Under the pieces are notes generated by a model. That model ran no database searches, was not told where the DNA came from, and was given only the letters and a program-made list of their open reading frames with translations. A program made the position numbers and the translations under genes. Below, in pieces: positions 1,250 through 53,592 of a stretch of DNA of 64,000 nt. The first letter of the stretch is position 1. Each line of letters begins with the position of its first letter. The stretch is from a candidate division WOR-3 bacterium (GTDB lineage: Bacteria > Hydrothermota > Tepidihabitantia > Tepidihabitantales > Tepidihabitantaceae): positions 633,538 to 697,537 of the forward strand of contig JBDRTY010000001.1 in NCBI GenBank assembly GCA_039801085.1, in the 5' to 3' direction.

Positions 1250-2614
<1,365 letters not shown>

Positions 2615-49566: not shown

Positions 49567-49595
49567 TTGACAGAAAAATCAAGTTTTTATAAAAT
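49567..49595 (+). promoter_or_regulatory. Promoter of the two secreted-protein genes
   Basis: TTGACA (49567-49572), 17-base spacer, TAAAAT (49590-49595). The leader of about 35 bases ends in AAAAAGGAGG before ATG 49636. Confidence 0.75.
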
Positions 49596-49635
49596 ACAGC
49601 TGGCTGCGGTGAGGATAAATTAAAAAGGAGGAAAA

Positions 49636-51122
49636 ATGAACACCAGTAAAGTAAAGATCACCGCAGGGTTGTTGATTCTGATGCTTGCCGGACAGACCGC
49701 AGGTTCACGCTGGTTTTATTTCCCTACCCCCCCTGGTGTTATACCGGACCGGGTTCGGCACTGACCTACGGGAAAAGGTGGGATGAGCAGTTTGGTAAAA
49801 TTTTTCTCCTCTGCACAGACTATCAAAGCGGACGGTATCGGTTCTTTAGGGCACCGGCATATTTTGATTACAACGGACAGACCGTCTTCTTGAACTGGCA
49901 GGAACTGAAGCCACCGCCCGTTGCCAGCCCAATTCCACCGGCAGATGCTGCACTGTGCTATATGGGTAATCCAGTAAGCTCGGAAGAAAAGGTTCTGGCG
50001 GTATTTTCTGGTGACCGGTATCTCTGGAGTTATGATGTGCCAAGTGATACTTGGTATCAGGAGATACCGATTGGCGGAAGTGATTCGCCGGGTGCTGGAG
50101 CGAGTCTGAAGTTTGGAGGGTTTCGAGTGAAAGAGGGAATTCCCGTCAATACCTTCTACCTGATAAAAGGGGGCAGAAGTTGTGAATTTATGGTTTACAA
50201 TCGGCCTTATGTTCCGGCAAAGGGTGGTTACCCGTCGTTCCCATACTGGGAACTACTTGCTCCATTCATGGGCGGTCAGGGATTCCATGCTGGTGCAGAT
50301 CTGGCGATGTATCATCCTGATCCTTATAAAATTCCGGCACCGGACACGATTTTTGCGATGAGGGGAGATGGAATATATTTCGGACTTTACCGGATCAGCC
50401 AGAATTGTTGGGAGCTGAGAGATAGTATCCTTGACGATGGTGCGTATGCCGGAGGTGCGTTGGTTTCTCATCCGCGCTGGGGTGATATCCGTGATGATGA
50501 TCCGCCGTTTGAGGAGGGGCCTTCATATTCTGTCAATTCCATCCTGCACTGCTTCCGGGGGGAGAACAGGGAGGGAAAACCCACTTATGACTTTGACTGT
50601 TATGATGTCTATTCTTCTGGCAGCGAGCGTTGGAACGGTGATGCGCCCAATCCTGTTTATAAAGTAAGTTCCGGTTCTGATCTCTGTTTTGGCGGAATCT
50701 GGTATCGCTACAACGGACAGATTCGGTTTAAAGAATGTATCTGGGCAAGTTTCGGCGGGAAAATGCCGGTGCCCAACTGGTATATCGGGATTCACTACCG
50801 TAATCCGTTTCTCTGGGAGCAAAACTCTGAACCAGGAGGTTCCCAGTCGGCGATAGCACCGGTCAGGGAGGACGGCAGGATTAAAGTTCTGCCATCGGTT
50901 GCCCGGGATGACATTTTATTTCAGTTGTCCGGCACCGGCACTGGTGAAGTTTGTATTTATTCCGGTTCCGGACAGCTGGTGCGTCATTTACAGCTGAATT
51001 CCGGGAGTGTCACCTGGGATCTCAAGACAGAGGATGGCAAGAAGGTGCCTGCCGGTGTCTACATCTATCAGGTGCAAGCCGGCGGGAAAGAGACAAGAGG
51101 AAAGTTAACCATCAGGAGGTAA
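49636..51122 (+). pseudogene. Secreted beta-propeller-like protein with sorting domain, frameshifted in a C7 tract
   Basis: ATG 49636 has a strong ribosome-binding site and opens a signal peptide ('AGLLILMLAGQTAGS'), but this frame stops at TGA after about 42 codons. The reading continues, in the +1-shifted frame, from 'YTGPGSALTYGKRW' to TAA 51122; the switch point is a run of seven C (49727-49733), and an eighth C would restore one frame of about 496 residues. The body has Kelch/propeller-like repeats and the end is a sorting domain ('EVCIYSGSGQLVRHLQLN', 'VPAGVYIYQVQAGG'). It may be a sequencing error, a phase-variable gene or a real pseudogene. Confidence 0.82.
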
Positions 51123-51126
51123 TGAA

Positions 51127-53592
51127 ATGAACCCTCACCGCAGCCTTTTTATTTTCATTGCTGTAATTTTTTATCGGATTTCAGCATTACCCGCCCCCCT
51201 GCCGGCTCAGCCTTTTAAACTGCTTTATCTTCCGGATTCGCTCGGTGGCTGTGCCGATTTTGGCACACCGTTTTATAACCCGAGAACAAATGAGGTTTAT
51301 GTCTGGTCCGGACGGGCAGGAAACCTCGGGGTTCTTGACGCTTCTACGGGCGAACGGAAGCGTCCCTGGGTGTTGGATCCTCCTTATTATCTTACCTGGA
51401 ATCAGTTTGCCCTCAATCCGGTAACGAACCGGATGTATACCGCCCGGACTTATGGTGGCAGGCGTGATGATGACACATTTGCAGTTGTATATGACTGTTC
51501 AACCCGCAGCCCGGTTGAAACACTTTTTGTTAACAGGAACGGCATGGAGTTTCAGAGTAATTATCTTTCAGTGAATACCGCCTCAGATCAGTTCTTCTGG
51601 AGTGTCAGTCTGGGCGGGGTGAATCGGACATACATATTTGATGCCCAGACCGGCGAGTTGAGAAAAATCGGCCCGGCAGGACCGTTTATTCAGCATCCCT
51701 GCCGGCCGGTTGCCTATCAGGGTCATTATTCATATTCAATCACAGTCTGGGATTGCACCACCGATTCAATTATTGATTCTATCGCTGCGCCCCCGGGATT
51801 CCGTCGTTTCAACTTTTTGGTCTCGATGATTGCTCCGGATTCGGAGTTGCTGTTTGTTGCCGGAGATTCAGAGTGGATGATCGCACAACATTTATTTGTG
51901 ATCAGCTGTCGCAACAATCAAATCATCGGCCGGCTCAGGTTTGCTGACCAGCTGGCATCATGGGCGTGTTGTGATTACAATCCATTCAACAATAAGCTCT
52001 ATGTTGCGACTAACACGAAAACATTTGTGATTGACCCGGTCAGGTGCCAGATTGTTGATTCGCTGGGGGATAGGGGCGCGTTGTATTACAATCCGGTGCA
52101 CAATCTTCTGTTCCGAGCTACGGTGGCAAGTGATTTTATTGATGTTTTTGATGGTGCTACCAATCAGCTGGTCGCTCAGATTCAGGCACCGGGCAGCGAT
52201 GGAGTGATGATTCCGGAAGTTGACAAACTGTTTCTTAGAGAGGGAGGGGGTAATATTGTGATGGTTGACTGTTGCCGCCTGCAGCTGGAACGGTATTTCA
52301 AAATGGGTTATGGGAATCAGGCGCTGACCCTGAACCCCAATACAGAACGGCTTTATGTAAACGATGTCATGAGGGATACGATGTCCTCAATTCTGGTGGT
52401 ATACGACGCCCATACGCTCCAGCCGCTGGGTGTCCGGGATTACCGGCATCAAGTTGATCCGGCTGAATGGTTTTACGACCTCTGTCCCGCACCTCCGGAG
52501 AACAAAATCTATCTGACTTCGGGCAAGGGGCTGGGGGTTTATGTTATAAATGGCGAACAGGATTCGCTGATTCATCTTATCCCCTGCGATGCGGGCGGAC
52601 ATCAGCTGGTTTACAGCTGGCGGTCTAACCGGATGTTTGTCTGTCCGTTTACCCAGTCGGGCTATCTTCACATCATTGACTGTGCTGATGACCGGGTTGT
52701 CGCCAGTTACTGGATTGACGAAGGACCGGTTGACGGCTATCTTAATTCTTTTAATGAACTGCTTTATTGCCCCACCGGCACCAACCCCTCCTTTCTCTGT
52801 CTGTTTGACACCTGTGGTACGATGCTGAAGCGGATCCGGGGCTTGGGTAATCCGGTTGTCTTTCGCAACCGGAGTGATATTCATCAGGTATATATTGCCG
52901 CTCACCAGGATACCTGCTTGTATGTCTTTGACCCTTCACTTGTCAATGTGATTGACACTGTTCAGAATGTCCCTGTTTACGAGCGTAACTTTGCCTATTA
53001 TGACTCCATTGATGATCGCATTTACTACCCAGCTGGTAATCCGCTGCGAATGCTGGTGATTGACTGCGGGTTGAACAAGGTGGTAGATTCAATAATGTTT
53101 CCTCCAGATTATGGCAACGACAATTTTGCGATTTTTTACGATATCGGATTCTGGAATCCGGTGTCAAACCGGTTGTATTGGCTGGGCAGTATCATTGATT
53201 GCCGGACGAACCGGATTATTGCTGAGATTCCGGTGCTGGCGCCTACCAGAACAGCCTGGAATGAAGCCGATAATATCGTTTTTGTCAATGACCACTGGCG
53301 GGCAAAGGTAGTGGCGGTAAGGGATAATCTGATTGGCTGTGATGAAAGGGGCACCGATGATATTATTAGCAGCGTCGCACTGCTCTTACCATCTCTGGGT
53401 AATAGGTTCGTCCGGGGTCCGGGCATTACCGGTGAAATAAGGGTATTTGATGCTGCCGGAAGGGCGGTGAAAAATATCAGACCAAAACAGCAGGTATTTG
53501 ATGCCCGGAGTTTTGTGCCCGGAATTTACTTTGCGACTGCGACCGGATTTGACGGCACCCGCAGGGTGCAGAAGTTTACTGTCATCAGATAA
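51127..53592 (+). CDS. Secreted YVTN-type beta-propeller protein with C-terminal sorting domain
   Basis: 821 residues, ATG 51127, four bases after the previous stop and with AGGAGGTAATGA upstream. After a signal peptide come many short repeats such as 'FYNPRTNEVYVWSG', 'LNPVTNRMYTARTY' and 'YNPFNNKLYVATN', the pattern of YVTN/Lactonase-like propeller blades. The last 60 residues form a sorting module ('EIRVFDAAGRAVKNI', 'FVPGIYFATATGFDG'). It should be exported and held on the surface or released, like its neighbour and the C25 peptidase. Substrate or partner unknown. Confidence 0.88.
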   Translation: MNPHRSLFIFIAVIFYRISALPAPLPAQPFKLLYLPDSLGGCADFGTPFYNPRTNEVYVWSGRAGNLGVLDASTGERKRPWVLDPPYYLTWNQFALNPVTNRMYTARTYGGRRDDDTFAVVYDCSTRSPVETLFVNRNGMEFQSNYLSVNTASDQFFWSVSLGGVNRTYIFDAQTGELRKIGPAGPFIQHPCRPVAYQGHYSYSITVWDCTTDSIIDSIAAPPGFRRFNFLVSMIAPDSELLFVAGDSEWMIAQHLFVISCRNNQIIGRLRFADQLASWACCDYNPFNNKLYVATNTKTFVIDPVRCQIVDSLGDRGALYYNPVHNLLFRATVASDFIDVFDGATNQLVAQIQAPGSDGVMIPEVDKLFLREGGGNIVMVDCCRLQLERYFKMGYGNQALTLNPNTERLYVNDVMRDTMSSILVVYDAHTLQPLGVRDYRHQVDPAEWFYDLCPAPPENKIYLTSGKGLGVYVINGEQDSLIHLIPCDAGGHQLVYSWRSNRMFVCPFTQSGYLHIIDCADDRVVASYWIDEGPVDGYLNSFNELLYCPTGTNPSFLCLFDTCGTMLKRIRGLGNPVVFRNRSDIHQVYIAAHQDTCLYVFDPSLVNVIDTVQNVPVYERNFAYYDSIDDRIYYPAGNPLRMLVIDCGLNKVVDSIMFPPDYGNDNFAIFYDIGFWNPVSNRLYWLGSIIDCRTNRIIAEIPVLAPTRTAWNEADNIVFVNDHWRAKVVAVRDNLIGCDERGTDDIISSVALLLPSLGNRFVRGPGITGEIRVFDAAGRAVKNIRPKQQVFDARSFVPGIYFATATGFDGTRRVQKFTVIR

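Follow-up and report, generated by a model that had tools for sequence, protein, structure and literature searches.

In the opa genes of Neisseria, pentanucleotide repeats lie in the coding part, and the reading frame depends on a repeat in the region of the signal peptide. Translational phase variation through poly-G/C tracts is described for the Neisseria haemoglobin receptors HmbR and HpuAB in the accessible part of one report (PMC3786947), and the cut-off given for poly-G/C phase variation in the accessible part of another is at least seven G/C (PMC6321876). A survey of evolutionarily conserved frame transitions covered 1106 complete prokaryotic genomes, and its accessible text states that simple-repeat phase variation has been studied chiefly in pathogens (PMC3711429). 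In the open-licence literature, including the matches listed by broader searches, we found no report of phase variation in WOR-3, and the phrase is absent from PMC12542636 and from PMC12285271, which deals with a cultured WOR-3 strain; open-licence papers yielded nothing on repeats in metagenome-assembled genomes. Here we analysed a 64,000-nucleotide stretch (referred to as the window in the rest of the text) from a candidate division WOR-3 bacterium, and we propose, from sequence comparison and with a probability of about two in three, that secreted proteins of WOR-3 undergo slipped-strand phase variation.

Anatomy of the window gene

The genome that contains the window (G000) measures 1.91 Mb in seven contigs. 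A preliminary description of the window had placed the ATG, the Shine-Dalgarno sequence and the signal peptide of one gene in one frame and the remainder in another, with the change at exactly seven C. Reading the frames confirmed this arrangement. The start at 49636, the AGGAGG (recognized by eye) and the signal peptide share a frame, MNTSKVKITAGLLILMLAGQTAGSRWFYFPTPPGVIPDRVRH, that stops at 49762-49764, while the body frame is free of stops from 49650 to its stop codon at 51120-51122. No ATG, GTG or TTG occurs in the body frame before 49890, where the first start codon lies. The body does occupy a separate frame, but its length, previously given as 450 residues, is slightly greater (466 residues, counted from 49722). 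The features of the locus, all on the plus strand, are as follows.

49567-49595, plus strand: promoter-like pair TTGACA (49567-49572) and TAAAAT (49590-49595), spacer 17, recognized by eye
49626-49631, plus strand: ribosome-binding site AGGAGG, read from the sequence
49636-49764, plus strand: start codon and signal-peptide frame, 42 codons closed by TGA, read from the sequence
49727-49733, plus strand: C7 run, junction of the two frames; homologues have C8, C8 and C6 at the equivalent place
49722-51122, plus strand: body frame, 466 residues and stop, with an all-beta, propeller-like model (pLDDT 66; Foldseek); homologues 43-45% identical
50901-51113, plus strand: C-terminal type IX-type sorting or FlgD Ig-like domain, body residues 394-464 (TIGR04183, FlgD_ig)
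51127-53592, plus strand: next gene, coding for a secreted beta-propeller-like protein (821 aa), its start 4 bases past the body stop

The C7 run reaches the cut-off of seven or more G/C given in the accessible part of the published account (PMC6321876). The three other G7 or C7 runs of the window (at 307, 62666 and 62800) all lie within stop-free frames of 327-412 codons.

The body scored 26.3 bits against TIGR04183 (type IX sorting domain), above the curated cut-off of 23, and 24.2 bits against Pfam FlgD_ig, under the cut-off of 27; a paralogue in the same genome (L002) reached 13.0 bits against TIGR04183, under the same cut-off of 23. A structure model of the body, built from three sequences, is all beta with a mean pLDDT of 66, and the top Foldseek ranks were PorZ and six-bladed lectin propellers, at low TM-scores. 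Our guess is that the product may be a secreted beta-propeller, perhaps sugar-binding, a reading that stays tentative because the structure model is weak. The 821 aa neighbour contains a YncE-like stretch (35.3 bits, far under the model cut-off of 400), and since it starts 4 bases after the body stop, it may be co-regulated with the window gene. The bodies of L002 and of the homologues L014 and L013 (see below) are likewise followed by a gene similar to this neighbour, and TTGACA/TANNNT pairs similar to that of the window gene were seen 5' of all three.

C runs and other simple repeats at secreted-protein genes

Homologues were sought in 100 genomes, with matches ordered by E-value, and by a profile search over the 28 genomes of the order; the congeners compared were two other species, G001 and G002. 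Full-length members numbered four, namely the window gene, its paralogue L002, L014 in G001 and L013 in G002, and profile searching of the order added no other of full length. A search of genome contigs matched the locus in G001 and, weakly, a planctomycete. In all four members the break coincides with one and the same C run, which lies directly past the signal peptide (sequence context F-(N/P)-(T/A)-P) and measures C7 in the window gene, C8 in L002 and L014, and C6 in L013; every member has a ribosome site, a start codon and a signal peptide in a frame other than that of the body. The shift needed by the window gene is opposite to that needed by the other three. The comparison with related genomes advised in the preliminary description has revealed same-site breaks in both congeners and in the paralogue. 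Because all four full-length homologues are broken at the same place, the break in the window gene is more than chance, and since three assemblies share it, a lone error is unlikely. One TGA stop lies inside the L014 body. Between L002 and L014, the bodies gave dS 0.27, dN 0.074 and dN/dS 0.28, and the signal-peptide part (27 codons) a ratio of 0.35.

A second secreted family came to light from the C8+ runs in G000, G001 and G002, as two tandem G000 genes with the run within the signal peptide. This family is unrelated to that of the window gene, is present in G000 and in another genus, and has no match in Pfam or NCBIfam. Searching the 28 genomes located it at 15 places in 7 genomes. A C run lies inside the signal peptide at six of the 15 places and every one of these is out of frame (L142 judged by eye), with lengths of C8, C10, C7 and C7 in G000 and of C9 and C10 in G003, from another genus. 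At five places the signal peptide is in frame and a run is absent (L135, L138, L139, L141 and L147). The remaining places without a run are L143, at a contig end, L137, for which the script chose another frame, L140 of G001, whose leader is lost, and L136 of G024, which by eye has a ribosome site and a signal-like frame but no ATG at the expected place. Promoter, leader and signal-peptide DNA are nearly the same in the four G000 copies L134, L142, L145 and L148, while most of their bodies have strongly diverged, a pattern as if the 5' part had been copied between paralogues. The run lengths of these four copies differ despite the near-shared 5' DNA, where L142 has a short deletion. In this family dN/dS was 0.096 for L142/L140 and 0.118 for L142/L148; several of the 21 pairs compared had saturated dS, and others gave ratios of up to 0.61 at dS > 1.4. 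The bodies of both families are under purifying selection, where measurable.

Distinct C8+ runs numbered 23 in G000, 21 in G001 and 9 in G002, and outside the two families no convincing frame break was seen at any of them. Under a permissive test, which accepted a frame on either strand and from which family copies were taken out by hand, a stop-free frame of 300 nt or more encloses 18 of the 20 non-family runs of G000 and all 20 of those of G001; these figures arise because the raw totals (19 of 23 and 21 of 21) each count one family copy as inside. L048 and L072 were rejected as frame breaks since they resemble ordinary gene junctions, and so were L044 and L068, which sit 5' of opposite-strand signal-peptide genes (L068 by eye). 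The L068 run (1496-1508, minus strand; G002:C60) is a C13 close to the end of its contig, and no longer run was seen in G000, G001 or G002; on the opposite strand the C13 adjoins by eye a TATAAT 5' of the apparent signal-peptide gene. Another candidate for length variation is the C11 of L074 (5906-5916; G000:C2:340478-340488), which lies in an open frame, is in frame in the assembly and is followed by a hydrophobic segment.

An order-wide scan for a ribosome site, an ATG and C7, with a hydrophobic start and a long frame behind the run, returned eight out-of-frame cases, all from the two families, and three in frame (L157, L184 and L191). Extending the scan to C8 in 147 genomes added L219, which is in frame, and L203, a doubtful case of 119 codons. 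Neither L142 nor L013 is matched by the scan patterns. In four unrelated signal-peptide genes a C7-C9 run close to the start is in frame, and these genes may be ordinary.

Five members of the second family without a C run carry another repeat upstream (L131, L139, L147, L135 and L141). L131 of G014, assigned to the family by E-values of 7e-33 with L139 and 2e-8 with L135, has G10 between TTGACA and TATAAT, and L139 of G005 has eight AG units as its promoter spacer. CTACT-type pentanucleotide arrays occupy the leaders of L147 in G000 (5 copies, 1222-1246) and L135 in G003 (6 copies, 2239-2268), both about 140 nt 5' of the start, and of L141 in G003 (about 3 copies, by eye). Scanning 728,911 bases (the loci and the window) for units of 2-7 bases gave 10 arrays over threshold, three of them upstream of genes of this family. 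At L012 (3111-3158; G000:C2), four GGAAAG units are immediately followed by four GGATAG units.

Poly-G promoter spacers (TTGACA, G7, TANNNT) gave 39 rows, corresponding to 37 places, in 13 of the 28 genomes of the order, compared with one hit for a reversed and five for a poly-C control pattern in the same genomes. All genomes with such spacers belong to the bacterial family of the window, and the pattern was not found in G000 or G001. A signal-peptide gene lies within 250 nt downstream at 16 of the 28 places examined (out of 37), compared with 490 of 5600 random positions in the same loci, a weak control relative to ordinary promoters, which would be stricter; the spacer measures 16-18 in 23 of the 28. 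The poly-G promoter-like pairs of L105-L133, with spacers containing at least G7, may form a set of switchable promoters. At L132 (1501-1579; G015), five TTCTG units follow such a pair within about 30 nt.

Proposed phase variation and its rivals

We propose that the C run directly after the signal peptide would lose or gain C's by slipped-strand mispairing during replication. A run length that joins the frames of signal peptide and body would allow the secreted protein to be made, and at other lengths translation would end shortly past the signal peptide. The run would vary within the population, in-frame cells would exist, and the window consensus would represent an off majority. Recurrent out-of-frame runs, their differing lengths, the second family, selection on the bodies and the other upstream repeats all support this reading. 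At least seven G/C stand in the reading frame in the window gene and in nine of the ten run-bearing copies overall, L013 with C6 falling short. The bodies are intact and selected (dN/dS 0.28, 0.096 and 0.118), with the TGA of L014 as the exception, and run lengths range over C6-C8 in the first family and C7-C10 in the second, differences among paralogues and species, not strains. Against phase variation count the absence of any in-frame copy among the ten in these consensus assemblies and the offset common to eight of them, which would have chances of 0.017 (if one-third were on and the copies independent) and 0.0034, respectively; both figures overstate the case because independence of the copies does not hold, L002 and L014 being orthologues and the G000 copies of the second family sharing 5' DNA. 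Also counting against it are the C6 of L013, below the usual cut-off, the equal lengths of L002 and L014 in two species, the stop inside the L014 body, the four unrelated C7-C9 genes that are in frame, and the absence of poly-G promoters from G000 and G001.

Since no copy is in frame and eight of ten share one offset, programmed recoding has to be kept as a rival, in which the ribosome (+1 at CCC-C) or RNA polymerase slips and an out-of-frame gene yields a steady share of full-length product. Those eight copies need the same +1 reading, a slippery CCC-C is present in the zero frame (by eye), and CCC-C is described, in a source accessible in part, as a known +1 frameshift-prone proline site. 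However, the directions are mixed: the window gene and L134 need -1, and L134 differs in this from L145, its near-identical tandem neighbour. Folding of the downstream RNA as nested secondary structure, in six of the ten copies, gave z values of +0.73 to -1.5, arguing against a stimulatory structure; runs of 7-10 would exceed what a +1 site requires, and recoding cannot account for the promoter and leader repeats of the relatives. We consider it unlikely. Still less probable is an obligatory form, in which the DNA would never hold signal peptide and body in a shared frame, and production would depend each time on slippage of the ribosome or RNA polymerase at the C run; secretion would then be gated, with a low and possibly regulated secreted output.

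Gene decay, whereby the run broke genes that now drift as pseudogenes, would fit the lack of in-frame copies, the additional stop in the L014 body and the missing leader of the G001 relative L140. It is nevertheless quite improbable: the bodies are otherwise open, the three closest usable comparisons gave the low dN/dS ratios cited above (many other pairs of the second family being uninformative through saturated dS), signal-peptide frames are retained in all ten copies, and each of the two families is broken repeatedly at a single place. The preliminary description had left the choice between phase variation and error; comparison supports the former, and sequencing error is unlikely as the same break stands in three assemblies. 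Homopolymer length is commonly miscalled, but the three genomes are broken at the same site, the permissive frame test placed nearly all non-family C8+ runs of G000 and G001 in stop-free frames, and the G001 record has contig names that we take to be SPAdes-style, with a coverage of 25.5. A miscalled run length is thus very improbable.

Comparison with known systems

If phase variation is the correct reading, the several kinds of slippery repeat at secreted-protein genes of uncultured WOR-3 would point to phages, grazers or changing surfaces as agents selecting for switching in that lineage as well. As in opa, the repeat lies in the signal-peptide region, but here it consists of C's, and the pentanucleotide arrays of CTACT type are found in leaders. 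The poly-G/C systems of Campylobacter and Neisseria, as set out in the accessible part of PMC6321876, likewise have at least seven G/C in the frame of an exposed or secreted protein, and a change in length shifts the frame. In contrast to those systems, the lineage studied here is uncultured and non-pathogenic-looking, the run falls within the signal peptide or at its end, and all ten copies are out of frame in consensus assemblies. The porA promoter of Neisseria meningitidis, in the accessible part of PMC3639595, has poly-G between the -35 and -10 elements at genes for exposed proteins, as predicted from sequence for 13 of the 28 genomes of the order; here, however, such spacers are absent at the window gene and mostly measure 16-18. 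The clusters described in the accessible part of PMC3711429 consist, as here, of homologous genes with a frame break beside a repeat, many of them coding for surface or secreted proteins.
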